Of a stretch of DNA of 64,000 nucleotides, positions 9,735 through 43,474 are shown piece after piece. This stretch comes from Streptomyces venezuelae (GTDB taxonomy: Bacteria; Actinomycetota; Actinomycetes; Streptomycetales; Streptomycetaceae). Within the stretch, counting starts at the first letter, position 1. Each line of letters begins with the position of its first letter. The DNA is taken from positions 310,001 to 374,000 of the forward strand of contig NZ_CP029190.1 of NCBI RefSeq assembly GCF_008642295.1, given 5' to 3'. The position numbers were made by a program, and so were the translations under genes. The notes below the pieces were generated by a model that saw only the letters and a list, made by a program, of their open reading frames with translations, made no database searches and had not been told where the DNA came from.

Positions 9735-9772
9735 GACGGCGGTTCCTCCGGGGTACGCGGGTCTGCCTCGGG

Positions 9773-13005: not shown

Positions 13006-13031
13006 GCGGGGAACGGTATCCGGGGCGTTGA

Positions 13032-15821: not shown

Positions 15822-15831
15822 GCCTCCAGGA

Positions 15832-16326: not shown

Positions 16327-16420
16327 TTACTGATCATCCACGGTCGCCCTCGGGGGCCACCCGATCGTTCCGGCCCTCCCCAACCGCCGGCCGGCCCCCC
16401 GCAGGCGTACCCTCGGCCGA

Positions 16421-17041: not shown

Positions 17042-17089
17042 GGCCCCAGCCCACCCCCACGGGCCCCGCCCCGCCCCGCCCCGCCCCCG

Positions 17090-18631
17090 TCATGGCATGA
17101 GCTGGTACTCCGGGAAGTTGCCCGGCAGCCGTTCGCCGGCCGGCCCCTCGGTGACGGCGTGTACGAGCAGTTCGCCGCCGACGAACGCGCCCCGCCAGGA
17201 CGCACCGAAGCCCCCGAACAGCTCCTCCCGGTCCCCGCGCGAGCGGGGCGCGCCGTGGCCGATCTTGAAGGCCCGGATCTGCGGGGCGAGCCGGGTGAAG
17301 GTCTCCGGGGTGTCGGTGGACAGCGTGGCCACCAGCGCGCCGCCGGAGGCGTTCATCGCCGCCAGCAGCTCCGCCTCCGTGTCCACCAGGACCACGGTGT
17401 CGACCGGGCCGAAGGGTTCCGCGTGGTAGAGCGGCGAGGAGGTCGGCGGGTTGAGCAGGGTGAGCGGGGCCAGATAGGCGGAGGTGTCCTGGCCGGGCAG
17501 GAAGCGGTCCGGGTCGAGGGTGCCGCGGAACAGCGGTACGGCCCCGCGTTCCACGGCCTCGGCGGCGTGCTCGCCGAGTTCCTTGGCCTTGGCGGCGTTG
17601 ATGAGCGGGCCGAAGTCCAGCTCGGGCAGCGGGTCCGCCGGGTCGGCCACCGCGAGGGGGTGCCCGGTGCGGATCTGGCCGACAGCGGGCAGGTACGCGG
17701 CCAGGAAGGCGTCGAAGGCGCTGCGCTGGACGACGAAGCGGGGGTAGGCCGTGCAGCGCTGCTTGCCGTAGTCGAACAGTTTGGGGATGGCCGCGGAGAG
17801 GGCGGACCAGTCGGTGTGGTTCCACACGCCCCAGGTGTTGAGGCCTTCCTGCTCCAGGATGTGCCGCTTGCCGAGGTCGGTGACGGCGGTGGCGATCCGG
17901 GCGCCGGTGTCACGGCCCCCGACGAAGGAGACGCAGCCGATCTCGGGCGACCGGACGAGCGCCCCGGACAGTTCGGAGCCGCTGCCGCTGACCAGGGTGA
18001 CCGGGATGCCCTCGCGCCGGATCAGTGCGCAGGCGAGCGTCAGGCAGGCCAGCCCGCCGTCGGTGGGGGTCTTGGCGATGACCGCGTTGCCGGCCAGGGC
18101 CTGCACGAGCATCGCGTGGACCAGCACGGACATGGGGTAGTTCCAGCTGGCGATGTTGGAGACCGGGCCGGCGAGCGGGCTGCGGCCCTCGGTCATGGTG
18201 TCGATGTGCTCCAGGTACCAGCGGACTCCGTCCACGGCCCGGTCGACATCGGCCTGGGCGAGCCGCCAGGGCTTGCCGATCTCCCAGACGAGCAGCAGGG
18301 AGAGGAGTTCGCGGTGTTCGGCGAGGGCGTCGAGGGCGGCACCGACCCGGGCCCGGCGCTCGGGCAGCGGCACGTGCCGCCAGTCCCGGTGCTGGTCGAG
18401 GCTTGCCCGTACGGCCTGTTCGGCGGCGGCGGAGTCCAGCCGCGGCGGGCCGGCTATGGAGCTGCCGTCGACCGGACTGGTCGCGGGCAGGCTGTGGCCG
18501 TCGGGCTGCCAGGAGCCGGCCCAGAGGTTCAGCACGCGGTCGTCACGGAAGGCCTCGGGGGCGACGGTCAGGGCCCGCTGCCAGGCATCGGTCCAGGCGG
18601 TGCCGGGCTTGAGGGCGAGGGTGGGTGCCAT
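17090..18631 (-). CDS. Aldehyde dehydrogenase family protein (divergent)
   Basis: A 513-residue NAD(P)-dependent aldehyde dehydrogenase. The cofactor-binding 'SNIASWNYPMSVLVHAML' corresponds to the usual PWNFP motif, 'CVSFVGGRDTG' to the GS loop, and the catalytic Cys lies in 'KQRCTAYPRFV'. The general-base segment reads ILEQEGLNTW rather than LELGGK.P; the Glu is kept but the following Gly pair is not. The start at 18631 gives a normal N-terminus; upstream frame is noise. The substrate is unknown. It stands alone, 144 bp downstream of a small hypothetical gene. Confidence 0.88.
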   Translation of the reverse strand: MAPTLALKPGTAWTDAWQRALTVAPEAFRDDRVLNLWAGSWQPDGHSLPATSPVDGSSIAGPPRLDSAAAEQAVRASLDQHRDWRHVPLPERRARVGAALDALAEHRELLSLLLVWEIGKPWRLAQADVDRAVDGVRWYLEHIDTMTEGRSPLAGPVSNIASWNYPMSVLVHAMLVQALAGNAVIAKTPTDGGLACLTLACALIRREGIPVTLVSGSGSELSGALVRSPEIGCVSFVGGRDTGARIATAVTDLGKRHILEQEGLNTWGVWNHTDWSALSAAIPKLFDYGKQRCTAYPRFVVQRSAFDAFLAAYLPAVGQIRTGHPLAVADPADPLPELDFGPLINAAKAKELGEHAAEAVERGAVPLFRGTLDPDRFLPGQDTSAYLAPLTLLNPPTSSPLYHAEPFGPVDTVVLVDTEAELLAAMNASGGALVATLSTDTPETFTRLAPQIRAFKIGHGAPRSRGDREELFGGFGASWRGAFVGGELLVHAVTEGPAGERLPGNFPEYQLMP

Positions 18632-26434: not shown

Positions 26435-26470
26435 ACGCTCCATGATCGGGGCGGGCCGCCGGGGCGGCTC

Positions 26471-26497
26471 TGACAGGTCACTGACACCTTGTGTCAG
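26471..26497. promoter_or_regulatory. Possible SARP box / dyad upstream of the precursor gene
   Basis: Two heptamers, TGACAGG (26471-26477) and TGACACC (26482-26488), start 11 bp apart, the spacing of SARP direct repeats. The second overlaps a dyad CTGACAC-CTT-GTGTCAG (26481-26497). A SARP-type regulator is encoded at the far end of the cluster. The M20 gene is divergent, so the site could serve either or both genes. I see no clear -10 box. Confidence 0.5.
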
Positions 26498-26594
26498 CGG
26501 CTCGCGGGGGGAGGTGACGGCGGCCCGGGATCTGATGGGTGCGGGCACCGGCCGGTGCCCGCACGCCGCTTCCGCCTCTGCACAGGGAGTCATC

Positions 26595-26768
26595 ATGGAG
26601 AAGTCCCCGCTGGCCTCGCTCGCCGACGAGATCCTCGAGCTGGAGTCCGAGACCTTCGAGATCTCCGACTACTCGGACGCCAGCGAGGTCGTGCTCGCCG
26701 GTTCCACCAGCTGCAGCTCGACCTCGACCTGTTCCTCCACCACCAGCACCACCTCCTGCTCGGCCTGA
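26595..26768 (+). CDS. Precursor peptide of a Ser/Thr/Cys-rich azole RiPP
   Basis: A 57-residue precursor. The leader (1-36) is acidic and contains 'ELESETFEISDYSD', resembling thiazolylpeptide-type bacteriocin leaders, and ends 'EVVLAG'. The predicted core (37-57) is 10 Ser, 7 Thr, 3 Cys and one final Ala; residues 39-57 read SCSSTSTCSSTTSTTSCSA. Cys and some Ser/Thr would become azoles and other Ser/Thr dehydro-residues, using the enzymes of the facing operon. ATG 26595 has AGGGAG 7 bp upstream. A strong hairpin follows the stop, and the operon converges on it. The cleavage point after Gly36 is an inference; Ser39-Cys40 would also make a typical thiopeptide-like start. Confidence 0.93.
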   Translation: MEKSPLASLADEILELESETFEISDYSDASEVVLAGSTSCSSTSTCSSTTSTTSCSA

Positions 26769-26797
26769 CGGCCTGAAGCCTGTCGGCCCGGGATACG

Positions 26798-26838
26798 CGG
26801 ATGCCTCCGGCCCCTGTCACAGGGGCCGGAGGCATCCG
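26798..26838. terminator. Bidirectional terminator between precursor and biosynthetic operon
   Basis: Perfect inverted repeat of 20 bp per arm (left arm 26798-26817, right arm 26819-26838) with essentially no loop. It lies 30 bp after the precursor stop and 17 bp beyond the end of the convergent operon. Confidence 0.9.
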
Positions 26839-26854
26839 GCGTTAAGGGAACGGG

Positions 26855-28798
26855 TTACGGGAACGGGTGCGGCACCATCCGGATCTCGTCGTCCGCGAGG
26901 TCGTGGGCGCGCAGGCCGCCGCGCCGGGCCGCCGTCCGCAGTCTCGGCATGAAGGGGGCCCGCTGCCGGGACCAGCCGAAGTCGATGGGCAGCAGCCCCG
27001 GAACCAGCGCGCACACGGTGCGCAGTCCGATCCTGCGCTGTTCCGGGGTGGTCTGGTCCACGACGATCACATCGTGCCCGGCCCCGGTGAGCTCCCCCAC
27101 CACGGACAGCAGGTCCTCGCGGAGGTCGGTGGTGGCCGGCCGGTCGCCGTACAGCTCGTCGAGGGTGCGTATGCCCGTGGGTTCCAGATAGCTGCGGGCA
27201 TGTTCGGCCATGGCGGGCAGCCCGTAGAGCTGGGCATGGTCCTTCAGATGGCGGACCTTGCCGAAGTCGGCTGCCATCGCCTCCAGTTCGGTACGGCGTT
27301 CGGCGACCTGCCCGGGCAGGTGCGGGATGTAGGTGAGGACCTCCGAGAGGGCCGCCTCGACGGCCGCCGCCGGGTCCAGGGCGGCGCCCGCGCCGAAGGA
27401 GTACAGTCCCGGGCCCCCGTCGCGGCGCACCGCCAGGGCCGTCACCACCGGGACGGCCAGGTCGATCCGGTTGTCGAAGGCGTGCACCTCGTAGCCCTGG
27501 AGGGCGGCCCGGTCCGCCATGGTGCGGACCGCCGGGCCGGGTACGGAGTCCAGGTCGATGGCGGTCAGCCGCTGGCCGCCGTACCAGGCGAGGAGGAAGG
27601 CGTCGCGTTCGACGAGTTCGAGGAGGGCGCCGAGCAGCGCCTCCTCGGTGCAGCTGCCGATCGCGCAGCCGTTGGAGCATTCGAAGACGAAGTTGTCGGC
27701 GGCCAGTCCGGCGCTGTAGTGGACCAGCCGGGCCGGCACCAAGACCGGCCGGTCGTCGCGGAGGGAGTGCCCGTACACCCAGGGGATGGGGCGGTCGGGG
27801 TCGAAGGGGGACAGCAGGGGGTCGTCCCGGTAGGTCTGCGCGGGGTAGAGCCCGCAGGCTGCCGGGTGCAGGGCGCGGTCCCCGAGCTCGGTGTAGGAGG
27901 CGGTGAGGAGGGTGCTGCCGGTGCGGCGGTGGGTGCCGGCGTACCGTTCCAGGCCCTCCAGGTGGGCGAGGTCGCGGCTGGCCGCGAAGCTGTTGGCCTG
28001 CCCGCTCCAGGTGACGTCGGTCAGGCCGGCGTACCCGCGCATGAACACGCTGCCCGCGACCGGGGCGGTGGTGGGCGAGGTGACGTTGATCCAGGTGCCG
28101 CCGCCCAGGACCCCGGTGACGGGGTTGGCGAGCGCCGTGTACGGCATCGGATAGGAGGAGGCGGGGCGCAGCCGGGCGGCGCCGGGGGCGGGTTTGGGCC
28201 GGGACTGCGGGGTGAAGGGCGCGGGGGCGTCGGTGCCGCGCGGCCCGCAGTCGGGGCAGAGCGGGTCGGCGAGCAGCGGGTGGGTGCGCACCGCGTATGT
28301 CTTCAGGTCCAGCCGGGTGACCTGGGGCAGGGCCCGGTCGGCGGGCTCGGGTCCGGGGGCCCGGACGGCGGTTCCGTCGCCGTGACCGTGGCCGTTGGCG
28401 TGGCCGTTGCCGTGGCCGTCGAACACGGCCGTGTGCAGCGCATGGGCGGCGTCGAGTGCGAAGGCGGGCAGCCGGGGCCAGTCTCCGGCCACCGTGGTCG
28501 GGGCGCCCGTCCCGGTCTCCAGAGCGTCGCGCTCGCTGCGGCTGCGCAGCCGCTGCCAGCGCATGGCCAGGCAGCGTCCGCAGGCGGGGGCGGTGCCGTC
28601 GCCGCCCCAGGGGCCGATGAGGACGGCCTGGGCGGTGAGATGGACGGTGGCGGTCGCCCGGGTGGCGGCGTACGGGTCGGCGGCGCGCGGCCCGAGGGCG
28701 TCGTGCACGCCGACCGTGACCACGTCCGCTCCGGTGCCGCGGTCGGCCAGGGCCTGGGCGAGCTGGGTCCTGGCGGCTTCCAACGGGGCGGTGGTCAT
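26855..28798 (-). CDS. YcaO-domain cyclodehydratase (copy A)
   Basis: A 647-residue azoline-forming enzyme: it activates backbone amides with ATP so Cys, Ser or Thr side chains cyclise. The N-terminal ~230 residues hold paired Cys, 'CGRCLAMRW' and 'CPDCG', a likely zinc tetrathiolate site. The YcaO part has 'LEGLERYAG' and 'ELVERDAFLL', contributing the ATP/Mg Glu/Arg residues, and ends exactly in PHPFP, the C-terminal catalytic motif of this family. A His/Gly-rich insert lies near residue 130. Last gene of the operon; its start overlaps the ABC permease stop by 4 bp. A second, full-length YcaO lies at 37221-39185. Confidence 0.93.
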   Translation of the reverse strand: MTTAPLEAARTQLAQALADRGTGADVVTVGVHDALGPRAADPYAATRATATVHLTAQAVLIGPWGGDGTAPACGRCLAMRWQRLRSRSERDALETGTGAPTTVAGDWPRLPAFALDAAHALHTAVFDGHGNGHANGHGHGDGTAVRAPGPEPADRALPQVTRLDLKTYAVRTHPLLADPLCPDCGPRGTDAPAPFTPQSRPKPAPGAARLRPASSYPMPYTALANPVTGVLGGGTWINVTSPTTAPVAGSVFMRGYAGLTDVTWSGQANSFAASRDLAHLEGLERYAGTHRRTGSTLLTASYTELGDRALHPAACGLYPAQTYRDDPLLSPFDPDRPIPWVYGHSLRDDRPVLVPARLVHYSAGLAADNFVFECSNGCAIGSCTEEALLGALLELVERDAFLLAWYGGQRLTAIDLDSVPGPAVRTMADRAALQGYEVHAFDNRIDLAVPVVTALAVRRDGGPGLYSFGAGAALDPAAAVEAALSEVLTYIPHLPGQVAERRTELEAMAADFGKVRHLKDHAQLYGLPAMAEHARSYLEPTGIRTLDELYGDRPATTDLREDLLSVVGELTGAGHDVIVVDQTTPEQRRIGLRTVCALVPGLLPIDFGWSRQRAPFMPRLRTAARRGGLRAHDLADDEIRMVPHPFP

Positions 28799-29550
28799 GG
28801 CCGGTTGCTCCAGCGGAAGGTCTTCAGCCCGATGGCGCCGAAGAGCAGCGCGAAGCCGAGCAGGGCGGCACAGCCCAGGCCGATGGTGCCCAGGGAGCCG
28901 CTGCCGGTGAGGGCGCCGGTTGCGGCGTCGTTGAGGTAGCGCAGCGGCAGGACCCGGGAGACCTGCTTCAGCCAGTCGGGCATCATGTCGAGCGGCAGGA
29001 ACGAGCCGGACAGGAACGCCATGGGCACCATCAGGCAGTTGGCGATCGCGGCGACCGCCTCCGGGGTGTTGGCGTAGGTGCCGACGATCACGCCTATGGC
29101 CATGAAGGCGGTGATACCGAGGACCAGGGCGGGCAGCACCAGCGGCCAGCGCCCGTCCAGCCGGAGTCCGAAGCCGGGGAGCATGGCCACCGCGACGAAC
29201 ACGGCGGCCTGCACCACGCCCACGACGAGGGCCAGCACGTACCGGGAGGCCAGCACGGTGGTGAGGGGGGTGGGGGTGAGCCGGATGAGCCGCAGCAGGT
29301 CGTCGCGCCGCCACTGCATCAGGGTGAAGGCGATGCCGAAGACGGCCGCGTTGGCGACGCCCCAGGACATCACTCCGGGGGCGATGTACGAGATGTAGGG
29401 GCGGCCGGACTCCTCCACGTCCTGGCCGCTGAAGATCAGGCCGAAGACGACGAGGAAGAGGAGGGGGAAGGCGAAGGTGAAGAACAGGGTGGCCTTGTCC
29501 CGGACCTGTGCCCGGTAGCCGGCGGCCGTGAGGACCGTGTACGCGCTCAT
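28795..29550 (-). CDS. ABC-2-type exporter permease
   Basis: A 251-residue membrane permease with six predicted helices, ABC-2 type (NodJ/DrrB-like), including 'LDMMPDWLKQVSRVLPLRYLNDA' (read as two parts) in the last extracellular loop. It pairs with the ATPase encoded immediately upstream (4-bp overlaps both sides) to export the modified peptide and give self-protection. No other immunity gene is recognisable in the cluster. Confidence 0.92.
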   Translation of the reverse strand: MSAYTVLTAAGYRAQVRDKATLFFTFAFPLLFLVVFGLIFSGQDVEESGRPYISYIAPGVMSWGVANAAVFGIAFTLMQWRRDDLLRLIRLTPTPLTTVLASRYVLALVVGVVQAAVFVAVAMLPGFGLRLDGRWPLVLPALVLGITAFMAIGVIVGTYANTPEAVAAIANCLMVPMAFLSGSFLPLDMMPDWLKQVSRVLPLRYLNDAATGALTGSGSLGTIGLGCAALLGFALLFGAIGLKTFRWSNRP

Positions 29551-30521
29551 GCCTGGTACTCCGTGACCGTGGTGGGGGTTTCCGGTGCGCCGTCGGACGT
29601 GGGGGCCGCGCCGGTGAGTTCGAGGTAGACGTCTTCGAGGGTGGCGGTGCGGGTCAGTACGCCGTCGAGCCCGGTGAGGGCGTCGACGGCCTGGAGGACC
29701 CGGCCGGGGACGGCGGTCTCCAGGACCAGCGAGCCTCCCTGGACACTGGCCCGGTCCACCCCGGGCAGCGCAGCCGCCTGCCCGAGGTCGATCCGGCCGG
29801 CGGGCAGCAGCAGCCGGGACGGTGCTCCGGCTGCCGTGACCAGCCGGTGCGGGGTGTCCAGGGCGGCGATCCGGCCGCCGACGAGGATGGCGACGCGGTC
29901 GCACAGCGCCTCGGCCTCGTCGAGGTGGTGGGTGGTGTACACGATGGTGCGGCCCTGGCTCTTCAGTCCGCGCAGCACCTCCCACAGGTCGCGGCGGGCC
30001 TGCGGGTCCAGTGCGGCGGTCGGCTCGTCCAGGAAGATCAGCTCGGGCTCGTGGACCAGGGCGGACGCGATGGCCAGGCGCTGGCGCTGGCCGCCGGACA
30101 GGTTCTCGACGAGTACGTCCTGCTGTCCGGTGAGTCCGACCGCCGCGAGGGTCCGGTCGGCGGCGGCGCGGTCGGCCCGGTACAGGCCGGCGACGGTGAC
30201 CAGGTGTTCCCGTGCGGTCTGCCGGACGAAGAAGGCCGAGGCCTGGGTCTGTACGCCGATCCGTGGCAGCAGGGTGGTGTTGCGCGGCCAGGGGCTGTGG
30301 CCGAGCACCCGGACGGTGCCGGAGTCGGCCTCGCGCAGCCCCTCCATGATCTCGATGAGGGTGGTCTTGCCGGCGCCGTTCGGGCCGAGCAGGCCGAGGA
30401 ACTCGCCGTGCCGGACGTCGAGGGAGATGCCGTCCACGGCCTGGCGGTCGCCGTAGCGTTTGCGTACGTCGGTGACGGTGATGGCCGCGGGGTGCTCGGG
30501 CGGGATGCTGTCAGTGGTCAT
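29547..30521 (-). CDS. ABC exporter ATP-binding protein
   Basis: A 324-residue DrrA/CcmA-like ATPase. Walker A GPNGAGKTT (residues ~50-58), signature LSGGQRQRLAIA, Walker B LIFLDEP and H-loop 'TTHHLDEA' are intact. The ~100-residue C-terminal extension is typical of drug-exporter ATPases. The 4-bp overlap with the permease gene shows coupling. Starts at the ATG 30521, 72 bp after the M50 protease stop. Confidence 0.95.
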   Translation of the reverse strand: MTTDSIPPEHPAAITVTDVRKRYGDRQAVDGISLDVRHGEFLGLLGPNGAGKTTLIEIMEGLREADSGTVRVLGHSPWPRNTTLLPRIGVQTQASAFFVRQTAREHLVTVAGLYRADRAAADRTLAAVGLTGQQDVLVENLSGGQRQRLAIASALVHEPELIFLDEPTAALDPQARRDLWEVLRGLKSQGRTIVYTTHHLDEAEALCDRVAILVGGRIAALDTPHRLVTAAGAPSRLLLPAGRIDLGQAAALPGVDRASVQGGSLVLETAVPGRVLQAVDALTGLDGVLTRTATLEDVYLELTGAAPTSDGAPETPTTVTEYQA

Positions 30522-30592
30522 GGGTGGTGCGTCCCTCGGTGTGGTGACGGGTGGGGTCGGTGGCGGTGGCGGGGTCTGCGGTGGCGGGGAGG

Positions 30593-31705
30593 TCAGCGGG
30601 TGGCGGCGTACCAGAGCGCGGCGGCGAGTCCGGCGGCGAGCAGCAGCACGAGCAGCGCGGAGCCGATGCCGTAGGCCAGGTAGATGCGGCGGGCCCGGGC
30701 CGGGTAGGCGGCTGCGGCGGCCCGGTCCCGCATCCGCAGCCGCAGGTACGCGGAGCCGGCCGGGGCGAGCCGGGTCACCCGCAGGGCGTGGCCGAGCAGG
30801 GTGTACCCGTCCAGCGGGGGCAGCGGGAGGAGGTTGACCAGGGCCTGCGCGGTGCCGAGCAGCAGCAGCGCGGACAGCACCCGGCCGGTGGGGTCGGCGG
30901 CGGGCAGGGCGGCCCGCCAGGCGAGGAAGGGGAGCAGGAACAGCAGGTTGGCGAAGGCGCCCGCGGCGGCGACGGCCAGCTGGTCCCGGCGGCGGGGCAG
31001 GTAGCGGTAGTTGTCGACCCGGCAGTACATGATGGCGACGGGCAGCCGCCAGCGCAGGCCGATCTCGCCGACCGTGCCGCCGACGTGGCGGGCGGCGACT
31101 CCGTGCGCGAACTCGTGCAGGGCCGTGCTCAGCCACAGCAGGGTGGCGACGGCGAGCAGCGGGACCGGCCGGCGGAGGGTCCAGGCGAGTCCGTCGGCCA
31201 GCCGGGGCAGGTCCGCGGTGAGGACGGCCACCATGGCCAGGCAGACCGCCAGGAGCAGGCCGAGCACGGCCGGGTGCAGCAGCGGGCGCAGTATCCGGTG
31301 GAGCCGGGCGGTGGCCGCGTCGGCGTCCGCGACCAGGCGGAGGCTGCCGCGGAGCAGGCCGCCGGTGAGCGGTGACGGGTTCGGTTCGGGGGCGACCGGC
31401 GGCGGGCCGCCGGCCAGCAGCCGGCGGGTGCCGAGGAGGGTCAGCAGCTGCTGCCAGTTCCGCTCGTCCAGCCGTCGGCCGAAGGCCTGCCCGTACTGGC
31501 CGCCGATCTCCGCGAGGCTGCGGGTGCCGTCGAGCCGGGAGACCAGGAAGTGTTCCCTGGCGCCGATCTCGAAGGCGGCTCCGGTGACCGGGTCCTTGAC
31601 CAGGTGGACGGTGGCGGGTCCGTTGAGCAGGGGCGGTGAGAGCAGGATCTCCGGGCGCAGGGCCGGCCGGTGGTCCAGCAGGGAGGGGGACGGGCCGCCG
31701 GTCAC
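30593..31705 (-). CDS. M50-family membrane protease with PqqD-like N-terminal domain
   Basis: A 370-residue protein. Residues ~45-110 look like a PqqD-like winged helix ('FLVSRLDGTRSLAEIGGQYG'), the fold that binds RiPP leaders. Then come five or six membrane helices with HEFAH near residue 197 (zinc site) and 'LLPLPPLDGY', the second M50 motif. Such proteins may cleave the leader or couple cleavage to export. Start is GTG at 31705, overlapping the preceding stop by 4 bp (GTGA). The combination in one polypeptide is a strong hint that it acts on the precursor. Confidence 0.88.
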   Translation of the reverse strand: MTGGPSPSLLDHRPALRPEILLSPPLLNGPATVHLVKDPVTGAAFEIGAREHFLVSRLDGTRSLAEIGGQYGQAFGRRLDERNWQQLLTLLGTRRLLAGGPPPVAPEPNPSPLTGGLLRGSLRLVADADAATARLHRILRPLLHPAVLGLLLAVCLAMVAVLTADLPRLADGLAWTLRRPVPLLAVATLLWLSTALHEFAHGVAARHVGGTVGEIGLRWRLPVAIMYCRVDNYRYLPRRRDQLAVAAAGAFANLLFLLPFLAWRAALPAADPTGRVLSALLLLGTAQALVNLLPLPPLDGYTLLGHALRVTRLAPAGSAYLRLRMRDRAAAAAYPARARRIYLAYGIGSALLVLLLAAGLAAALWYAATR

Positions 31706-32769
31706 GGCGCGACCTCGTGTTCCGGCTGCGCCGGCGCTTCGCGCAGGACCCGGCCCAGCAGGTGGGCGAGGTAGGCCTCGTCGCGGATGGTGACGTGGAG
31801 CCGGTTGTTGGTCATGTGGAGGTACGGGGAGAGCAGCCGCGGGAGGGCTTCGGCGGGGTCGGTGACCGGCTCGTCGCGGGTGCCGTCCCAGGACCGGAAG
31901 ACCAGGTTTCCGGAGCGGGCCAGTGCCTGGGCGCGGTCGCGCAGTTCGCGGCAGTGGCCGGCCCAGCCGGCGAGGAACTCGGGGAGCCGGCCGGTCTCGC
32001 CGGAGGACAGGGCCGCGCGGACGGCGGCAAAGCGGCGGGCCAGGCCGGGTGCGGTGTCGGCATAGCTGCGGTCGTACTCGGTGGAGCCGATGAAGCCGGT
32101 TCCGGGGAACGCCTTGTGCCAGAACTCGTAGTACGAGTCGAGATAGTCGGCGAGTTCCTCCCGGTCGGGCAGGAAGGTGGCCGCCATCACCATCATGAGC
32201 TGGGCGGAGGTGCCGAGCAGCACCGTGCGCAGATGGAGGTTCATCCGGCCCAGGGCGTCCATCACCAGGTCGCTGGAATGCGCGAAATGCCATTCGGCCA
32301 GCTCGATTCCGAGCGGGCCGCCGTATTTCCCGTATTCGGGCTCGTAGGGTTCGCGGGAGTACGAATTGTTGGGGCGCAGGTTCATCCGGCCGTCGGGGCC
32401 GGTGAATGCTCCGCGGTCGCCGTCGGGGAATTCTATGTCGAACAGGGTGTTGTAGAACTCGTTGAGGAATCCCGAATCGACCTCGTAGAGCGCGGGGCGG
32501 GCGGTGAGGAAGGCGGCCACGGACTCCTCGGCCCGGCGCCGGACCTCTGCTTCGGCGGCCGGGGTGACCGGCCGCAGGCGCAGTCGCACATGCGGGCCCT
32601 CCAGCCAGTAGTTGATGAAGAAGTGCCCGTCGATCAGGCCGTCGGCGGTGAGGCCGTCGATCAGCGGGCGCACGCATTTCACCAGCAGGGGCTGGGGGTT
32701 GGCGGCGTAGAAGATGTGCAGGGCCTGCCAGGCTCCGCGGGTCCGGGTCAGGTCCGTCGGCTCGGTCAT
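31702..32769 (-). CDS. SpaB-C-domain protein (elimination or pyridine-synthase type)
   Basis: A 355-residue 'thiopeptide-type bacteriocin biosynthesis' domain protein. It opens with the SpaB-C pattern 'WQALHIFYAANPQPLLVKCV', then 'FFINYWLEGPHVRLRLRP' and 'YEPEYGKYGGPLGIELAEWH'. In split LanB systems this domain removes glutamate from glutamylated Ser/Thr to give dehydro-residues; in thiopeptides a paralogue performs the [4+2] cyclisation. Only one copy is present, and its neighbour supplies glutamylation, so elimination is the likelier role. It overlaps genes on both sides by 4 bp. Confidence 0.9.
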   Translation of the reverse strand: MTEPTDLTRTRGAWQALHIFYAANPQPLLVKCVRPLIDGLTADGLIDGHFFINYWLEGPHVRLRLRPVTPAAEAEVRRRAEESVAAFLTARPALYEVDSGFLNEFYNTLFDIEFPDGDRGAFTGPDGRMNLRPNNSYSREPYEPEYGKYGGPLGIELAEWHFAHSSDLVMDALGRMNLHLRTVLLGTSAQLMMVMAATFLPDREELADYLDSYYEFWHKAFPGTGFIGSTEYDRSYADTAPGLARRFAAVRAALSSGETGRLPEFLAGWAGHCRELRDRAQALARSGNLVFRSWDGTRDEPVTDPAEALPRLLSPYLHMTNNRLHVTIRDEAYLAHLLGRVLREAPAQPEHEVAP

Positions 32770-35573: not shown

Positions 35574-35596
35574 GGTGTCGGCTCTCCTCGGGCGGT

Positions 35597-37192
35597 TCAG
35601 GCGATCTCGTGCCGGAAGTCGGCGGGTCGCGGGCGCTCGTGGCCGAGCAGCATGATCAGCAGCGGTGCCTCGTCGGTGCCGGTGAGCCCGAGCTGCTCGA
35701 TGTGGGAGATGTTGTCGAAGCCGAGGGCCACGCCCGCGCCGAGGCCGAGGGCTGCGGCCGTGGTGTAGAAGGTCTGGGCGACGGCCCCGACGGTGCCGTT
35801 GACCAGCCGGTAGCCGCGGTCGCCGACGGCGTCCAGCACGGCGGTGGTGCGGACGGTCGGGACGAGGACGGCGGCGGCCTGTTCCAGGTTGTAGTTGGAG
35901 AGGAAGTAGTTGCGCTGGAGGAACGGTCCGGGCGGGCCCGGTACCAGCAGCCGCAGGGTGGGTCCGGCGGGGTCGTCGGGATCGTAGGCGTAGGTGCCGG
36001 GTGCCACGCCTACGACATGGTTGACGAAGACGTACAGGCTGGTCAGGCGCGGCCCGTCCGGGCCCTCGGCCTCGGAGCCGAGCGAGGTGGCGGCGCAGTC
36101 GGCCAGGGTGGCGGCCAGCTCGGCCGCGGTGACCGGGCGGCCGGCCTCGAACCGGCCGAAGCTGCTGCGCCGGGCGCGCAGCGCAGCCGCGGGGCCGAGC
36201 CGGGCCGGTGCCGGGGCGGGCAGCGGCACCGGTGGCTGCCCGGTGGCGCGGGCCGGGAGGGCCGCGGCCGGGGCGAGGGCGCCGGGTGCCGGACGGTCGG
36301 CGGCGCGGCCGAGGGTGGCGGTGTGGATCCGGCGCAGGGTCTCGAACTCCAGGACGGTACGGGAGCGTTCGCTGTCGCGGTGCCCGACCGCGGGAGGCTC
36401 GCCGGGCGGCCCGTCAGTCGGAACGGCAGCCGGAACGGCACCGGAGGAGCCCGCCCACTCCAGCGGGATCACCGCGAAGAAGCCCTCGTCCTCGGGTGCC
36501 ACCCCGATCAGCCGCGCCAGCCGCTCCTCGTCGAACCACATCACCGGGGCGATCCGCAGGCCCTGTTCCGCGGCCCAGAGCCGCCAGGTCTGGATCAGCG
36601 CGCCGACGTCCATGCTGACGGCGTGAAAGGAGAAGCTGTTGTACTTGAAGGCGTTCTGCCAGTACTTGACGCCGAGGATCAGGTACTGGCCGCCGCCCGG
36701 AACGCCTGCTCCGGCGCCGAGGGCCGCATGCACCTCCGCGGTCACGTCTCCGGCCAGCAGCCGCCGCATCCCGTGCTGATGGGGTGTGTAGTGGTACAGC
36801 CCCGGTACCACGGGCGCGCCGGCCCCGGCGGCCCAGTAGACGCCGACCGGGTACAGGCCGCCGCCGGAGGCCGTGCCCCGGGACCAGTTGGCGTGCGTGT
36901 AGTGCGGCAGGGCGGCCAGGTCGGTGTTGGCCTGGACGGCCAGCCGGCGGCCGGTGAACCCGTAGCTGTCCTGGAGCATCCCGCCGAGCAGCGGCAGGGT
37001 GAACCCCTCCCCCGGGCCCGCGGCGGCACCGGGCACGGCAGTGGGGGCGGTGGGCAGGGTCAGCAGCTCGGTTCCCGGGTAGTACTTCGCCTTCCGGGGC
37101 CGGTCCGCCCAGTCGGGCACGAAGTCGACGGGCTCCATGGGGATCCGGCCGCGGTGCATGATGTCGTGCGCGTAGTCATGGGCGTAGCCCAT
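35597..37192 (-). CDS. Double SagB-like FMN azoline dehydrogenase
   Basis: A 531-residue nitroreductase-fold protein, predicted to oxidise azolines to aromatic azoles with FMN. Two nitroreductase-like halves are visible. The first has 'SRGTASGGGLYPVGVYWAAG' near residue 105 and 'LGVKYWQNAFKYNSFSFHAV' later; the second starts near 'ALRARRSSFGRFEAGRPVT' (~345). The Pro/Ala linker between them is long. Translation starts with GGAGGACCC before the ATG at 37192. It lies between the second YcaO and the dehydratase in the operon. Confidence 0.9.
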   Translation of the reverse strand: MGYAHDYAHDIMHRGRIPMEPVDFVPDWADRPRKAKYYPGTELLTLPTAPTAVPGAAAGPGEGFTLPLLGGMLQDSYGFTGRRLAVQANTDLAALPHYTHANWSRGTASGGGLYPVGVYWAAGAGAPVVPGLYHYTPHQHGMRRLLAGDVTAEVHAALGAGAGVPGGGQYLILGVKYWQNAFKYNSFSFHAVSMDVGALIQTWRLWAAEQGLRIAPVMWFDEERLARLIGVAPEDEGFFAVIPLEWAGSSGAVPAAVPTDGPPGEPPAVGHRDSERSRTVLEFETLRRIHTATLGRAADRPAPGALAPAAALPARATGQPPVPLPAPAPARLGPAAALRARRSSFGRFEAGRPVTAAELAATLADCAATSLGSEAEGPDGPRLTSLYVFVNHVVGVAPGTYAYDPDDPAGPTLRLLVPGPPGPFLQRNYFLSNYNLEQAAAVLVPTVRTTAVLDAVGDRGYRLVNGTVGAVAQTFYTTAAALGLGAGVALGFDNISHIEQLGLTGTDEAPLLIMLLGHERPRPADFRHEIA

Positions 37193-37220
37193 GGGTCCTC
37201 CAGCGGGGGAAGCAGCGGAA

Positions 37221-39185
37221 TCAGGGGAAGGGGTGCGGCGCCGGGTTGAACTCGGCTGGCTCCAGGTCGCGTTCGCGCAGACCGGCGGCGTGCAGGGCGG
37301 TGCGCAGCCGCGGCATGCCGAGGGCCCGTTGCCGGGACCAGCCGAAGTCGATGGGCAGCAGCCCGGGGACGAGGACGCTCACCGTGTGCAGGCCCAGCGC
37401 CCGCTGTTCCGGCAGCGTCTGGTCGACCGCCACCACGTCGAAGCCCTCGGCCGTCACGGCCGCGACGCACCGGTCGAGGTCCTCGCGTACGTCCGCGGAG
37501 ACGGCGGGTGCGCCGGGCGCCGCGGCGTCCGGCCAGGCCAGCTCGGCGACCGTGCGCATCCGGGACTGCGGGGCCCGCAGCAGGAAGTCGGCGTGCCGTC
37601 CCATCTCGGGGACCCCGTACACGAGGGGGTGGTCGTGCAAGGCGGTGACCAGATCGAAGTCGGCCGCCATGGCGCGCAGCCGGGCCTCGTCCCGCTGGGT
37701 GCGCCCCGGCAGGTTCACGGCGTCGGTGGCGATCTCGCAGAGTGCGGAGTCGAGGGCCGATTCGGGGTCGAGTCCGGCGCCGGCGCCGAAGCACATCCGG
37801 CCGGTGCCGCCGTCGAACCGTTCGGCCACGGCGGTCACCACCGGGATCGGGAAGGTGATCCGGGTGTCGAAGAACCGGGCCCGGTAGCCGTACATGGCCA
37901 GCCGGTCGGCCATGGCCCGGGTGGCCGGCCGGGCGCTGCTCGCCGGGTCGATCTCCGGCAGCGGCTGGCGTCCGTACCAGGTCAGCAGGAAGGCGTCCCG
38001 CTCCACGACCTCCATCAGGCCGAAGTAGACAGCCTCGGCCAGACTCCCGCCGGAGGCACAGCCGTTGGAGCTCTCCTGAACGAACCGGTTCTCCAGACCG
38101 GGTGCGTGATAGTACGTCAGGATCTCCGGTACCAGGCGGGGAACCCGGTCGCGCAGCGACCAGCCCCAGACCCAGGGGATCTCCCGGTCCGGATCGAAGG
38201 GCCGCACCCGCGGGTTGTCGCGGTGGAAGCGTTCGCTGTAGAGCCCGACGTCACGCGGGTCGACGGCGTCCGCGCCGAAGCTCTTGAGGGTGCCGGACAC
38301 GCTGGTGGTCCGGGACCGGGCCCGCATGCCGGCGTACCGTTCCAGCCCTTCCAGCACGCCCACCCGGGCACTGCGGTCGAAGGAGTCGGTGTGGCCGCCC
38401 CAGAACGTCTCGCGCAGGTACTCGCCCGAGCGCATGGAGAAACAGCCGATGGTTGCGGAGGTGCTGGTGGAGGAGATGTCCTGCACCAGGGAAGGTCCCA
38501 GGGCGCCGCACAGCGGATTGGCGAACGCGGCCACCTCGATCCCGTACGACTCCAGGGGCCGGGTCCGGAACACTCCGGGCCGGTACTTGGGGGCGGCCGT
38601 CAGCTCCGGCTCGGCCGGGGCGTCCGTGCCGGGCGTGGCGCAGACCGGGCACTCCGGGTCCGGGACCAGCGGATAGCGCCGTACGGTGCCACTGCGCAGG
38701 TCCAGCAGCCGTACCTGGCGGAACGGGCCGGCGGGCGACGGCACGGCTGCGTCAACCGGTGTCGGAGCCGCAGCGGCAGCGGCCGTGACGACGGCCGCCA
38801 GCTGCCCGGCAGCGAACGGGTGCGCGTACGGCCAGGGCCCGGCCGGGCGGGTGCCGCCGCCCAGCTCCAGCGCATCGCGCAGCGCCACCGAGCGGACGGC
38901 CTGCCAGCGCCGCTCCAGGCACCGTGCACAGCCGTCCGAGGTGCCGATCACCACATGGTGGCCGTACAGGTGGACGGGGACGGTGGCCTGGTGCTGCCCG
39001 GCGGCTTCGGGCGGGGGCGTGCGGAACGCGTCCCGCAGGCCCAGCACCGACAGGCTGACCCGCGGGCCGTTCAGGGCCCGGAGGGCGGCGGCGAGCAGGC
39101 CGGCGAACCGCTCGGCGGCCTCCGGCCCGAGGCCTTCGGCCAGGCCGTCGGCCAGGACGGCGGGCGCCGGGTGATCAGGCGTCAT
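37221..39185 (-). CDS. YcaO-domain cyclodehydratase (copy B)
   Basis: A 654-residue YcaO with the same layout as copy A: an N-terminal region with 'CARCLERRWQ' and 'CPVC' zinc-type Cys pairs, then 'LEGLERYAG', 'EVVERDAFLLTWYG' and a terminal PHPFP. It overlaps the ThiF-like gene by 11 bp and is therefore the natural partner of that protein. The two copies share the signature blocks but differ clearly elsewhere, so they look like diverged paralogues, not a recent duplication. Division of work (Cys versus Ser/Thr, or different positions) is plausible and untested. Confidence 0.93.
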   Translation of the reverse strand: MTPDHPAPAVLADGLAEGLGPEAAERFAGLLAAALRALNGPRVSLSVLGLRDAFRTPPPEAAGQHQATVPVHLYGHHVVIGTSDGCARCLERRWQAVRSVALRDALELGGGTRPAGPWPYAHPFAAGQLAAVVTAAAAAAPTPVDAAVPSPAGPFRQVRLLDLRSGTVRRYPLVPDPECPVCATPGTDAPAEPELTAAPKYRPGVFRTRPLESYGIEVAAFANPLCGALGPSLVQDISSTSTSATIGCFSMRSGEYLRETFWGGHTDSFDRSARVGVLEGLERYAGMRARSRTTSVSGTLKSFGADAVDPRDVGLYSERFHRDNPRVRPFDPDREIPWVWGWSLRDRVPRLVPEILTYYHAPGLENRFVQESSNGCASGGSLAEAVYFGLMEVVERDAFLLTWYGRQPLPEIDPASSARPATRAMADRLAMYGYRARFFDTRITFPIPVVTAVAERFDGGTGRMCFGAGAGLDPESALDSALCEIATDAVNLPGRTQRDEARLRAMAADFDLVTALHDHPLVYGVPEMGRHADFLLRAPQSRMRTVAELAWPDAAAPGAPAVSADVREDLDRCVAAVTAEGFDVVAVDQTLPEQRALGLHTVSVLVPGLLPIDFGWSRQRALGMPRLRTALHAAGLRERDLEPAEFNPAPHPFP

Positions 39186-41442
39186 GGCCCGGCTCCTGCA
39201 CCGCCGTCAGCAGCACCCGTACGGTGTGGATCCCGGCCTCGGTCAGGTCCGCCGGGCCGGTCGGCACCAGATAGGCGTCCCGCCCGGCCGCCCGCAGCCG
39301 CTCCAGCACCTCCGGCCAGTCCGCGACCGGTGCGCCCGGCAGTCCGGGCGCGGTTCCCGAGACGGTGAGCGTACGGGCGTCCAGGTCCCGCAGCAGCGGA
39401 TCCCCGGTGTCCGCGACGACTCCGGCCGCGCTACCGGACGTGGTTCCGGCGGTTGCCTCGTCGCGCTCGTACTGGACGGCGCCGATCAGGTCCCGGAGCG
39501 CGGCCACGGCAGCCGCCTGCCGGTCCGGGTCGCTGCCGATCGCCCAGCGCCCGCCGGAGCGGGCCAGCAGCACCTGGATGCCGCTGTGGGCCGCCTCGCC
39601 GAGGTCGAGCAGCTCGACCGGCAGGTCCAGGCGCTCCGCCGACCGGATCAGGAAGGCGACTTCGGGGTCGGTCTCCCCGGCCGTGGGCACGATACGGGCC
39701 GCCCTGCCGCGGACGGTGCGCAGCAGGGCGTCGTGGGCGAGGGCGGAGAGCAGTCCGGCGGCTGCCGCATCGGCCGGGGCGGGCCCGGCTCCGGCTCCCG
39801 CCCGGGTGCGTTCGAACAGGCGGGTGGTGTTGTGCGGGCCGAAGGGACGCACGGCTCCGGCCGGGACCAGGACGGGCTCCTTGGTGAGCAGCGAGACGCC
39901 CTGTTGGTGGGCGACCGGTGCGGAGCCGGCCGCCGCCCCCGAGGCAACGGTGAGCGGGGGCGCCACCGGCCGGCCGGGGCCGGGAGTGACCAGGTGCCGG
40001 GCGGGTGCCACGTGTTCGGCGTACACGATCGCGGCGGCGTCCAGGGCTCGCATCCGGGCGCCGGCGACATGGTGGACGTCGAAGGCGGCCACGGACCGTC
40101 GGCCGGTGTGGCCGATGCCGAGCTCGACCGCGCTCAGCTTCAGCGGTATCTGGGTCAGCGGCTCGTCCGCGTAGCGGGTGAACACCCCGGCGTGCGGCCG
40201 GACCAGGACCGCGCGCCGGTTGAGCTCCTCGACGAGGGCGTCGGCGTCCCGGGCGGTGTCCAGGGTCGGCAGTCCGGGCCTGCCGGAGGTGCCGGCGGCC
40301 GACAGGTCCACGGGGGTGACGGCGGCCGGCTCCTGCGCGGTCTTCTCGGTGTGCCGGGCGCAGAACGGGCAGGCCGGGTGCGGGAGCAGCGGTTCCGCGG
40401 TGACGTCCAGGGATTCCAGGTCCTGGACCAGGATCTGCCCTGCCGTCTCGGCGGGCAGCGCACCGGAGGCGGCGCGGAAGAGCTCGTAGCCGAGCAGGTT
40501 GCCGATCATCGCCGCCTGCGGGCCGCCCGGCACGGCCGTGCCCGGCACGGCCGTGCCCGGCCCGCCTGCGCCCGGGAGTGCCAGCGTGCTCCACAGCTCG
40601 GCCGCGGCGGCGGCCCCGCCCTCGGTCGCGCCGGCTCCCAGCCGCAGTGCGGCGCAGGCCCAGCAGCCTGCCGCGCCGGACCGGGTCTGCGGACCGATGA
40701 CGGCGTACGAGCCGAACGTCCAGGCGGGCAGCAGCAGTTGCCCACCGGGCAGGCCGGCGCGGAGCAGCGGCAGCAGTCGGGCCGGGGCGGACTGCCCGCC
40801 GCCGGTGACCACGACGGCCTGGTAGCCGTCCAGTGCGGCCGGGTCCAACGGCTCTCCCGGCGCGCCGGGCAGACGGCCGATCACGGCCGGGCACCCGTCG
40901 GCGGCGGCTTCGGCGGCCTCGGCCTCGGCCTGCGCGGTGTCCAGGCCCGGCAGTACCCCGATGGCGGCGCAGCCGTTGCGGACCAGGCTGAGCACGCACC
41001 AGCGGGCGATCTCGTCGTCGCCGAGGACGGCGACCCGGGTGTCGCGGAAGCTCCGGAACCGGGCCTCGGCGTCGTCGGAGTAGTGGTCGGCGTAGGCGAT
41101 CTGCGGGGCGTAGCGGCGGGCCACGTCCTCGGGCAGCACCGGTTCGGCGGCGGGGCGGGCCGGGACGGGGCGGGCGAAGTCCCGTTCGTACAGGGTCTTC
41201 ACGAGTTCGCAGACCATTCTGCGCTGGGCGTCGCCCAGCCCCGTACAGAGTTCGGCCACCGTGTGGTCGCCGTTGAGGTGAGGGACGATCAGGGTGGCGA
41301 AACGGTAGGCCGATGCGGCGGTGAGGCGGAATCCGCCGTCGGCGTTGTGGAACAGGACGCCGTCCGGTGTCTCGGTGAAGAGCACATCCCGGCGGATCCG
41401 GGGGCGGGTCGGGGAGAGGGTTTCGTACGTCGTCTGGGCCAT
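39175..41442 (-). CDS. Ocin-ThiF-like leader-binding partner of the cyclodehydratase
   Basis: A 755-residue fused E1-like/PqqD-type protein. Residues ~25-90 ('FHNADGGFRLTAASAYRF', 'HTVAELCTGLG') form the winged-helix leader-recognition element. Next comes a degenerate Rossmann-like E1 region ('VAVLGDDEIARW', then CWAC and CPFC zinc-type pairs), and a C-terminal part of unknown fold. Proteins of this class hand the precursor to YcaO. It is the first biosynthetic gene after the SARP regulator and overlaps YcaO copy B by 11 bp. Short direct duplications (GTAVPGTAVPG) near residue 300 indicate a flexible loop. Confidence 0.9.
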   Translation of the reverse strand: MAQTTYETLSPTRPRIRRDVLFTETPDGVLFHNADGGFRLTAASAYRFATLIVPHLNGDHTVAELCTGLGDAQRRMVCELVKTLYERDFARPVPARPAAEPVLPEDVARRYAPQIAYADHYSDDAEARFRSFRDTRVAVLGDDEIARWCVLSLVRNGCAAIGVLPGLDTAQAEAEAAEAAADGCPAVIGRLPGAPGEPLDPAALDGYQAVVVTGGGQSAPARLLPLLRAGLPGGQLLLPAWTFGSYAVIGPQTRSGAAGCWACAALRLGAGATEGGAAAAAELWSTLALPGAGGPGTAVPGTAVPGGPQAAMIGNLLGYELFRAASGALPAETAGQILVQDLESLDVTAEPLLPHPACPFCARHTEKTAQEPAAVTPVDLSAAGTSGRPGLPTLDTARDADALVEELNRRAVLVRPHAGVFTRYADEPLTQIPLKLSAVELGIGHTGRRSVAAFDVHHVAGARMRALDAAAIVYAEHVAPARHLVTPGPGRPVAPPLTVASGAAAGSAPVAHQQGVSLLTKEPVLVPAGAVRPFGPHNTTRLFERTRAGAGAGPAPADAAAAGLLSALAHDALLRTVRGRAARIVPTAGETDPEVAFLIRSAERLDLPVELLDLGEAAHSGIQVLLARSGGRWAIGSDPDRQAAAVAALRDLIGAVQYERDEATAGTTSGSAAGVVADTGDPLLRDLDARTLTVSGTAPGLPGAPVADWPEVLERLRAAGRDAYLVPTGPADLTEAGIHTVRVLLTAVQEPGHDA

Positions 41443-41465
41443 GGGACACCCCTGGGTGCGGTCTG

Positions 41466-41555
41466 GGTGGGAGGGGAGGCGGTACGAGGGAGGGAAAGAG
41501 GCAGGAGGCAGGAGAGGGGAGGGAGCGGAGAGGGGAGGGCAGGGTGGGACGGATG
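41466..41555 (-). promoter_or_regulatory. Pyrimidine-rich leader between SARP and biosynthetic genes
   Basis: In the 130-bp gap after the SARP stop, the + strand is about 88% purine over ~90 bp, so the operon transcript (minus) is C/U-rich and poor in G. Such C-rich, weakly folded RNA resembles Rho-utilisation sites. It could limit read-through from the regulator gene, or act as an unusual leader for the biosynthetic genes. No function is shown. Confidence 0.4.
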
Positions 41556-41572
41556 GAACGGAGCCGGCCGGG

Positions 41573-43474
41573 TCAGCGCGTGACCGCGGGAGGGGCCGTG
41601 GTCTGACGGGTGGGGCGGGTCGGGCGGGCGCGCCGACGCGCGTAGAGGTGAAGCAGCGGATGCATCCGGTAGGGGCCGGGCGGACCGTCTTCCAGCAGTC
41701 CTGCCTCGACGAGCTGTTCGAGGACGCCCTCGGTGTCGGACGGGTCGAGGCCGGTCCCGGCGGCGTGCGCGCCCAGCCGGAGGAAGGCCTCGCGGAGCTC
41801 CGGCGGAAGGGAGTCGACGGCCTGCCCGAAGACCGCGGGCACGGACATCCGGGGGTCCTCGGCGAGCGCGAGCCGGCCGGCCGGGTCCTCGGCGAGCCAG
41901 TCCGCGCAGTGCGCCACGGACAGGCCGGGCCGAGTCAGCAGCCGGCCGGCGGCGATCCGCAGGGCCAGCGGCAAATAGCCGCACACCGCGGCCAGTTCAC
42001 CGGCCGCAGCGGCTTCCGCGGCGATCCGGTCGGCCCCGACCAGGCCGGCCAGCAGCTCGTAGGCCTCCTCGGGAGCGAGGAGATCCAGGCGGTGGACGGC
42101 GCCGCCGTGGGTGGCGACCACGGCCGCCAGTCCGCGCCGGCTGGTGACCACGACCGTGGCGTTCCCAGCCGTGGCGGCGGGCAGCAGGGGGAGGACCTGC
42201 CCGGCGCCGGCGGCATCGTCGAGGAGCACCAGCCGGCGCCCTCCGGCGGGTTCGGGCAGCAGCTTGCGGGCCTCTTCGACGGTGACCGGGGTTCCGTCCG
42301 GGCGGGCGAGGGGGACGGCGAAGACCCCGCCGGGGAAGGCCTCGCGGGCGTCGTACGCACAACGCAGCGCGAGGGCCGACTTGCCGATGCCGGGGGCGCC
42401 GGACACCACGATCAGCCGGGGCCCGTCGGGGGCGGTCAGCTGTGCGGCCATCGCGGCCCGGCCGGCGGCCCGCCCGGCGAATCCGGGGGGCGGCAGCACG
42501 GTTTCCGCGGACGCACCGGGAAGGGCCGGGCGGACGGGAGCGGGAGCGGCTTCAACGGCGGCAGCGGTGGCGACAGCAGCTGTGGCCGTGGCATCCATGG
42601 GAAGCGCGGGTGCGGCGGGCAGCGCCGGGTCCTCGGAGGTTCCGCCGGCCGCGGAGGCTATTCGGGCTGCCGGCAGTTCGGGTATCCGGGCCGGTACCGG
42701 CTGCGCCAGGACCTGGCGGGGTATCCGGACGCCGCCCAGCTCCTCGGCCCGCAGGATCGCCAGTTCCAGCCGCCGCAGGCCCGGGCCGGGGTCGATGCCG
42801 AGCTCCTCGCGGAGCCGGTCCCGTACGGTCCGGTACTCGGCGAGGGCTTCGGCCTGCCGGCCGGTGCGGTAGAGGGCCTCGATGAGCTGCTCGGTGAACC
42901 GCTCGCGGACCGGGTGCCGGCGGGCGATGTCATAGAGGTCGACCAGGACCTGGTGGCAGTTCCCGGCGGCCAGTTCGAGATCGCAGACCCGTTCCAGCAC
43001 GCGCAGCCGCTCCTGCTCGAGCGTGGGTACGGCGTCCCGCTGCAACAGCCGGGAGGCCACGTTCGCGAGGGGCTGGCCGTGCCAGAGGGACAGCGCCTCC
43101 CGCAGCCGGTACAGCTCCTCGCCGGGGCCGGTCGCGGCCGGGGCCCGGCCGGCGAGGGCACGGAAGGCGACCAGGTCGAGGCTGTCGGCATCGGCGTGCA
43201 GGCGGTAGCCGCCGGGGACGGCCTCGATGGTGGTGGCGGATATCCCGTACTTGGCGAAGATCCGGCGCAGTCGCAGGACACAGGTCTGGAGGGCGGCCCG
43301 CGCGGTGGCGGGCGGCTCCTCGTCCCACAGGGCGCGCAGGAGGTAACCGGTGGAGACCACCGCACCGGGGTGCAGCAGGAGGGCGGCGAGCAGGCTGGTC
43401 GGTTTCGATGGAGTGAGAACGACGGTTTCGGGGCCGTGCGCAATACTCAGAGGCCCCAGGAGCTGGAACCGCAT
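41573..43474 (-). CDS. SARP/AfsR-type regulator with NB-ARC ATPase domain
   Basis: A 633-residue pathway-specific activator. Residues 1-90 are an OmpR-like winged helix ('FQLLGPLSI', 'LRALWDEEPPATARAALQT'). Residues ~95-245 are the BTAD domain ending 'LAEYRTVRDRLREELGIDPGP'. After an Ala/Pro linker comes an NB-ARC ATPase with Walker A GAPGIGKSALAL and Walker B LVLLDDA. AfsR's TPR tail is missing, so it is a medium-length type. It likely activates the RiPP operon and precursor. It is the first gene of the minus-strand series, with a 348-bp regulatory gap before it. Confidence 0.93.
   Translation of the reverse strand: MRFQLLGPLSIAHGPETVVLTPSKPTSLLAALLLHPGAVVSTGYLLRALWDEEPPATARAALQTCVLRLRRIFAKYGISATTIEAVPGGYRLHADADSLDLVAFRALAGRAPAATGPGEELYRLREALSLWHGQPLANVASRLLQRDAVPTLEQERLRVLERVCDLELAAGNCHQVLVDLYDIARRHPVRERFTEQLIEALYRTGRQAEALAEYRTVRDRLREELGIDPGPGLRRLELAILRAEELGGVRIPRQVLAQPVPARIPELPAARIASAAGGTSEDPALPAAPALPMDATATAAVATAAAVEAAPAPVRPALPGASAETVLPPPGFAGRAAGRAAMAAQLTAPDGPRLIVVSGAPGIGKSALALRCAYDAREAFPGGVFAVPLARPDGTPVTVEEARKLLPEPAGGRRLVLLDDAAGAGQVLPLLPAATAGNATVVVTSRRGLAAVVATHGGAVHRLDLLAPEEAYELLAGLVGADRIAAEAAAAGELAAVCGYLPLALRIAAGRLLTRPGLSVAHCADWLAEDPAGRLALAEDPRMSVPAVFGQAVDSLPPELREAFLRLGAHAAGTGLDPSDTEGVLEQLVEAGLLEDGPPGPYRMHPLLHLYARRRARPTRPTRQTTAPPAVTR

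Follow-up and report, generated by a model that had tools for sequence, protein, structure and literature searches.

A ten-gene operon and the precursor peptide gene facing it were analysed in a window of 64,000 nt from Streptomyces venezuelae (NZ_CP029190.1). The cluster probably directs the synthesis of a linear peptide carrying azoles and dehydroamino acids, by way of an F protein, two YcaO proteins and a split LanB pair; the product would be goadsporin-like but built on a thiopeptide-type precursor. The operon runs on the minus strand (43474-26855) opposite the precursor gene (26595-26768, plus strand). In order, it encodes a Streptomyces antibiotic regulatory protein (SARP), an ocin-ThiF-like F protein, a YcaO protein (YcaO 2), a double SagB dehydrogenase, a LanB glutamylation protein, a SpaB_C protein, an M50 protease, the ATPase and the permease of an ATP-binding cassette (ABC) transporter and a second YcaO protein (YcaO 1). 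Five of the nine junctions overlap and the remaining gaps are 23 to 130 bases. A first-pass annotation, made from the sequence alone, had listed these parts and described a tightly overlapping operon facing the precursor. Pfam and NCBIfam scans recovered the precursor, the ThiF-like protein, both YcaO proteins, the double SagB, the LanB and single SpaB_C proteins, the ABC exporter and the SARP, and the convergent layout agreed with that description. The protease had been called M50/PqqD-like; its M50 part was matched by Pfam and its PqqD-like part gave no Pfam match.

Related loci were located with LanB-protein patterns in contigs from one genome per species, yielding 105 relatives of which 80 were kept, a procedure that favours close relatives. 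The kept loci were from Streptomyces (72), Actinacidiphila (4), Micromonospora (2), Sphaerimonospora (1) and an unassigned member of the Streptomycetaceae (1). All ten genes were present in identical order on one strand in 60 of the 80 loci; since the same order recurs to this extent, the gene set is far beyond chance. Nineteen of the 20 incomplete loci were cut by contig ends (3.2 to 16.8 kb), and the other, L039, was a full-length locus lacking the permease and, apparently, YcaO 1. Fifteen of the incomplete loci were flagged as differing in order, a flag interpreted as the loss of one YcaO with a double match to its paralogue. When 392 genomes were drawn evenly from the genus, 67 had a homologue of SpaB_C alone, as distinct from the whole operon, at E <= 1e-60 (identity 41 to 100%), and 10 had a pyridine synthase over cut-off. 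The cluster is common in Streptomyces with a constant gene order, and the earlier description of it as unusual did not hold.

The precursor has a leader ending in ...SDASEVVLAG, after which the leader/core border is predicted, and a 21-residue core, STSCSSTSTCSSTTSTTSCSA, made up almost entirely of Ser, Thr and Cys. There were 155 precursor homologues at E <= 0.01. Precursors were identified in the loci by a pattern demanding a conserved leader motif, with the core taken as the last 21 residues. This gave 68 copies in 65 of 81 sequences (the window plus the 80 loci); of the 16 sequences without a patterned precursor, 14 were cut by contig ends and two, L015 and L039, were full-length. Eleven distinct cores were found, and 35 of the 68 copies had exactly the core STSCSSTSTCSSTTSTTSCSA. 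These 35 identical cores were encoded by 34 DNA sequences differing on average at 8.8 of 63 bases, and every difference was silent, which points to strong selection at the level of the peptide. So little change in the core is unexpected for an antibiotic RiPP (ribosomally synthesised and post-translationally modified peptide) and may reflect a conserved target or signal.

Core variation was analysed with 134 listed proteins (of 155 and 415 matches) together with the 11 cores from the loci. Sixty-nine distinct 21-residue tails were obtained, six were dropped as not anchored, and 63 were anchored at the C-terminus. Because the cores share ancestry, the residue counts do not represent separate events, and the pattern described here was noticed on inspection and not predicted. 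Cys was never seen at positions 8, 11, 12, 15 and 18, where Ser was present in 62, 62, 55, 63 and 63 of the 63 cores; the non-Ser residues were Thr at 8 and 11 and Ala (6), Thr (1) or Gly (1) at 12. At positions 7, 9, 10, 13, 14, 16, 17, 19 and 20, Cys was found in 10, 3, 49, 1, 8, 4, 2, 61 and 18 cores. Among the 35 copies of the identical core, the codons for Ser 11, 15 and 18 are mostly TCC or AGC, a single base change from Cys, and those for Thr 14, 16 and 17 are mostly ACC, which needs two changes. Mutation alone would favour the opposite Cys pattern because the Ser-site codons are nearer to Cys than the Thr-site codons. The substitutions are consistent with two classes of site, one of interchangeable Thr, Cys and Ser as expected of azoles and one of never-Cys Ser as expected of dehydroalanine (Dha). 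They suggest azole-azole-Ser(Dha) repeats at positions 9-20, and azole-azole-Dha repeats are the most likely make-up of the C-terminal half; the azole pairs would fall at 9/10, 13/14, 16/17 and 19/20 and Dha at some of 8, 11, 12, 15 and 18. The core without modification has a calculated mass of 1975.73 Da; at a loss of 20.026 Da per azole and 18.011 Da per dehydroamino acid, nine azoles with four Dha would give 1723.45 Da and 14 azoles with four Dha 1623.32 Da. An initial rule, by which Cys is excluded at core positions divisible by three, was rejected, being broken by remote cores with Cys at 3, 6 and 9. Both the gene families and the identity of the variable core residues support the first-pass prediction of azole formation plus dehydration.

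In all 60 complete loci both YcaO proteins retained the motifs ER.AG, SNGCAxG and ERD as well as PxPxP at the C-terminus; the two proteins of the window share 45% identity over 638 aligned columns. The ThiF-like protein lacked the YcaO motifs in 59 of the 60; in the one exception the matched frame carried every YcaO motif and is probably a mis-assigned hit, so that the true number of complete loci may be 59. The C-terminus of the F protein (39175-41442) nevertheless holds a degenerate third YcaO-like region (Pfam YcaO, E 6e-14), giving three YcaO-related domains in the operon. The M50 protein had HExxH in 60 and LDGY in 59 of the 60 complete loci. The functional meaning of the YcaO and M50 motifs is general background knowledge. 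The sole solved-sequence match of the LanB protein was 6ec7, 'Lantibiotic dehydratase domain protein' (E 1.4e-34). M50 proteases are described as releasing RiPP products in the pearlins and epipeptides (PMC10885120).

In the proposed pathway the SARP would turn on the operon, and the ThiF-like F protein would bind the leader and present the precursor to the two YcaO proteins. These are both predicted to be active cyclodehydratases and would close rings on Cys, Thr and some Ser, after which the double SagB would oxidise the rings to azoles. The LanB protein would place glutamate from glutamyl transfer RNA (Glu-tRNA) on Ser adjoining azoles, and SpaB_C would eliminate it to leave Dha. The M50 protease would then cut off the leader and the ABC pair would export the product. 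No pyridine would form, as a pyridine synthase is missing. That the dehydrated residues instead go into thioether (lanthionine-like) rings, with some Cys left unmodified, would suit the split LanB and the Cys-rich core variants; no LanC-type cyclase was seen among the ten operon proteins, and the operon holds two cyclodehydratases, so this is extremely improbable. An extension of the azole and Dha pathway is put forward tentatively and is doubtful: that the core is kept near-unchanged across actinomycete genera for one conserved purpose, without the diversification seen in antibiotics, and matures to a nearly completely modified rod in which azole-azole-Dha units repeat (as many as 14 azoles with 4-6 Dha or dehydrobutyrine residues per 21 residues), each YcaO acting at one of the two azole sites in a pair. 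With two paralogous YcaO proteins acting on one short Ser/Thr/Cys peptide, the division between azole and dehydration sites would be directly testable.

A thiopeptide was also considered, in which the single SpaB_C protein would carry out both glutamate elimination and [4+2] cyclisation to give a pyridine macrocycle. The precursor belongs to the thiazolylpeptide family (TIGR03892, over cut-off), and the best NCBIfam and solved-sequence matches of SpaB_C are pyridine synthases. The assignment of SpaB_C as a pyridine synthase from these names was overturned by profile span, partner scores, motif and tree. Against the pyridine-synthase profile it scored 100.7-101.7 bits (cut-off 325) over profile positions 1-275. 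Comparison proteins came from the ten genomes of the genus whose pyridine synthase passed the cut-off, each cluster having two SpaB_C proteins. Their ten eliminase-type neighbours scored 43 to 103 bits on the same profile, none extending past position 268, whereas the ten synthases scored 396 to 482 bits and spanned 351 to 353 positions. The window SpaB_C was closer to the eliminase-type than to the synthase-type partner in 10 of 10 clusters (for example 120 vs 39 bits). All ten eliminase-type proteins carried the motif PHxRLR, as did one of the ten synthase-type proteins and all 16 members of the window SpaB_C family that were checked. A spaced HxxxNR was found in 9 of 10 eliminase-type proteins and 16 of 16 of the window family, and a tighter HLNR in 6 of 10 synthase-type proteins; both PHxRLR and HxxxNR were present in SpaB_C of all 60 complete loci.

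The tree was built from stop-to-stop frames trimmed by a SpaB_C-family profile, was midpoint-rooted and has three long end branches. It separated 6 synthase rows from the other 26 at 100/100, with the window SpaB_C among the eliminase types; four of the ten synthase rows were lost, D_L120 and D_L122 giving no profile row and D_L118 and D_L121 scoring too low. Thiopeptides need Dha, formed from Ser, at core position 1. This position is Ser in the window and Cys, which cannot become Dha, in 18 of 63 distinct cores and 7 of 68 locus copies, the N-terminal register being less certain. A genome search returned a single Lant_dehydr_C match and no pyridine synthase, with a loose first pass that could miss a very diverged one, and the one sub-cut-off match to NF045556 genome-wide was the same SpaB_C protein. 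SpaB_C thus sides with the glutamate eliminases and not with the pyridine synthases, and a thiopeptide product is very improbable. The first-pass view that the cluster fits neither the textbook thiopeptide nor the simple linear azole-containing peptide layout stands, no pyridine synthase having been found and a split LanB occurring with two YcaO proteins. Annotation pipelines name the precursor family 'thiazolylpeptide-type bacteriocin', which probably misleads about the product; if the linear azole and Dha peptide is correct, many genomes so labelled hold a linear, non-pyridine product.

Besides the looseness of the genome search, several points weigh against the linear azole and Dha pathway. 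The F protein scored 73 bits against TIGR03693, far under the cut-off of 562, and for both the ThiF and the M50 protein the best NCBIfam model was matched below its cut-off. YcaO activity is read from motifs. Some cores have Cys at positions 3, 5, 6 and 9, so that the pattern is clean only C-terminally and less so before position 7. The position after Ser 11 (Ser in 62 of 63 cores) is not of the azole class, so that a rule of Ser ahead of an azole does not explain Ser 11; Ser 12 does precede an azole-class position and is replaced by Ala or Gly in 7 of the 63. No characterised product was found in the literature, where coverage of subscription papers was poor, so that this is weak evidence of absence.

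The features of the cluster are listed in the table. For SpaB_C, the M50 protease, both ABC proteins and YcaO 1, gene starts were assigned by reading the sequence, several initial open reading frames (ORFs) being too long.

Features of the azole and dehydroamino-acid peptide cluster (window coordinates)
Feature	Position	Strand	Support
Precursor peptide gene, 57 aa	26595..26768	+	TIGR03892 49.5 bits (cut-off 25); NF033400 41 bits, also over cut-off
Inverted repeat between convergent 3' ends	26798..26838		Opposite-strand self-match 98%; fold -53.1 kcal/mol
YcaO 1, fused leader-binding and SagD-family cyclodehydratase (predicted), 647 aa	26855..28798	-	TIGR03882 and TIGR03604 over cut-off
ABC-2 permease, 251 aa	28795..29550	-	Pfam ABC2_membrane
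ABC transporter ATPase, 324 aa	29547..30521	-	Pfam ABC_tran
Membrane M50 metalloprotease, candidate leader peptidase, 370 aa	30593..31705	-	Pfam M50; NF041824 98 bits, below cut-off 300
SpaB_C (Lant_dehydr_C) protein, TbtC-like glutamate eliminase by comparison, 355 aa	31702..32769	-	Pfam E 7e-43
LanB tRNA-dependent Ser/Thr glutamylation protein (predicted), 935 aa	32766..35573	-	Pfam Lant_dehydr_N E 2e-42
Double SagB-family flavin mononucleotide (FMN) dehydrogenase, 531 aa	35597..37192	-	TIGR03605 over cut-off, 2 stretches; Pfam Nitroreductase, 2 stretches
YcaO 2, fused leader-binding and SagD-family cyclodehydratase (predicted), 654 aa	37221..39185	-	TIGR03882 and TIGR03604 over cut-off
Ocin-ThiF-like F protein, degenerate YcaO-like C-terminus, 755 aa	39175..41442	-	TIGR03693 E 1e-20; TIGR03882 over cut-off
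SARP/AfsR-type regulator, 633 aa	41573..43474	-	BTAD, Trans_reg_C, NB-ARC

The inverted repeat folds with a z of -6.77, none of 200 shuffles being equally good, and is likely to be a bidirectional terminator common to the precursor gene and the operon. In five loci (L025, L029, L041, L058 and L078) the precursor gene does not face the operon end; it lies near the locus start, upstream of the SARP gene and in the same orientation as the operon, and the core is the variant with Cys at position 1. Precursor copies with differing cores were found beside one operon in L059 (three) and L043 (two). The 20 flanking ORFs scanned in the window encode ordinary metabolic, transport and regulatory proteins, and no copy of an obvious antibiotic target (e.g. 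EF-Tu, Ffh) was seen among them. Unrelated to the cluster, window positions 57208-60378 encode a 1056-aa protein with a C-terminal aldehyde dehydrogenase domain, presumably PutA-like.

Spongiicolazolicins A and B, of 29 and 28 residues, are described from Streptomyces pacificus CWH03 (PMC8838263). All ten genes are present in CWH03 (L074) together with a precursor of the same 21-residue core, and lengths of 29 and 28 could be reached by adding leader residues to this core, which would make the cluster type already characterised. A second CWH03 locus (L093, about 8006-17797) encodes one YcaO, an M50 protein with a PqqD match below cut-off (E 9e-4), SpaB_C, a LanB-like frame and a goadsporin-like precursor. 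This precursor ends in GNCAGSASTAGSFSCPGGTIGSAGSASST and matches NF033482, 'thiocillin family RiPP', at 55.7 bits, over cut-off; 29 or 28 residues could also be cut from it. The core GNCAGSASTAGSFSCPGGTIGSAGSASST splits into X-azole-X tripeptides, the pattern reported for the spongiicolazolicins (PMC11583998). Because the second-locus core has the reported pattern, the spongiicolazolicins more likely come from there. The argument from the identical CWH03 core to the ten-gene cluster as their source was rejected, the second locus fitting better, and that source is improbable. Spongiicolazolicins resemble the product predicted here in being linear azole peptides, and their putative locus also has M50, YcaO, LanB-like and SpaB_C proteins; on this assignment they differ in having a single YcaO and an unrelated core.

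The family has already been named by annotation pipelines, and the literature, as weak evidence, yielded no product reported for the cluster. The core letters were not found in a literature text search, a search by family name returned a paper which, in the text retrieved, merely names such a gene, and no cluster of this kind was seen in the available part of a survey of 96 refactored RiPP clusters. The product may be new, as first proposed, no characterised cluster with the same gene order and core having been found.

Among known systems, dehydrazoles also combine azoles and Dha in one peptide but use a LanM-type DUF4135 dehydratase where LanB is found here (PMC10676384). Dehydrazole membership was rejected: none of the operon proteins matched DUF4135, and Lant_dehydr_N was present. 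Thiopeptides share the TIGR03892 precursor family, and a fused YcaO, SagB and a split LanB pair are also present in the ten thiopeptide clusters compared; they differ in the pyridine synthase, not found here, and in core position 1, which is not always Ser in this precursor family.

Coryneazolisins, predicted from genomes, combine two YcaO with LanB proteins and lack a [4+2] enzyme; an extra fused cyclodehydratase is also reported for certain thiopeptide clusters (PMC4603692). Two YcaO proteins are not unprecedented because of these cases. Coryneazolisins are further alike in LanB-like dehydratases, a Cys/Ser/Thr-rich core and precursors near-identical to each other. They differ in coming from Corynebacterium, in pairing one discrete with one fused YcaO and in a core broken by Ile; unlike them, both YcaO proteins here have a fused leader-binding domain and are joined by an F protein.

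In goadsporin GodD, GodE, GodF and GodG fill the same roles; the split LanB dehydrates Ser before azoles, and dehydration needs azoles already present (PMC5303826). Goadsporin differs in having one cyclodehydratase (GodD), no F protein named in the sections consulted and a different core; it also has GodH, which is an N-acetyltransferase, and GodB, which is a peptidase-ABC protein, both of them absent from this operon. No GNAT N-acetyltransferase was assigned among the ten operon proteins, a chance-level match (E 0.019) lying inside the ABC ATPase. The goadsporin-type set of YcaO, SagB and split LanB, with no pyridine synthase found, is present here, and goadsporin shares with the cluster its YcaO, its flavin dehydrogenase, its split LanB pair and, for the product predicted here, a linear azole and Dha peptide without a pyridine.

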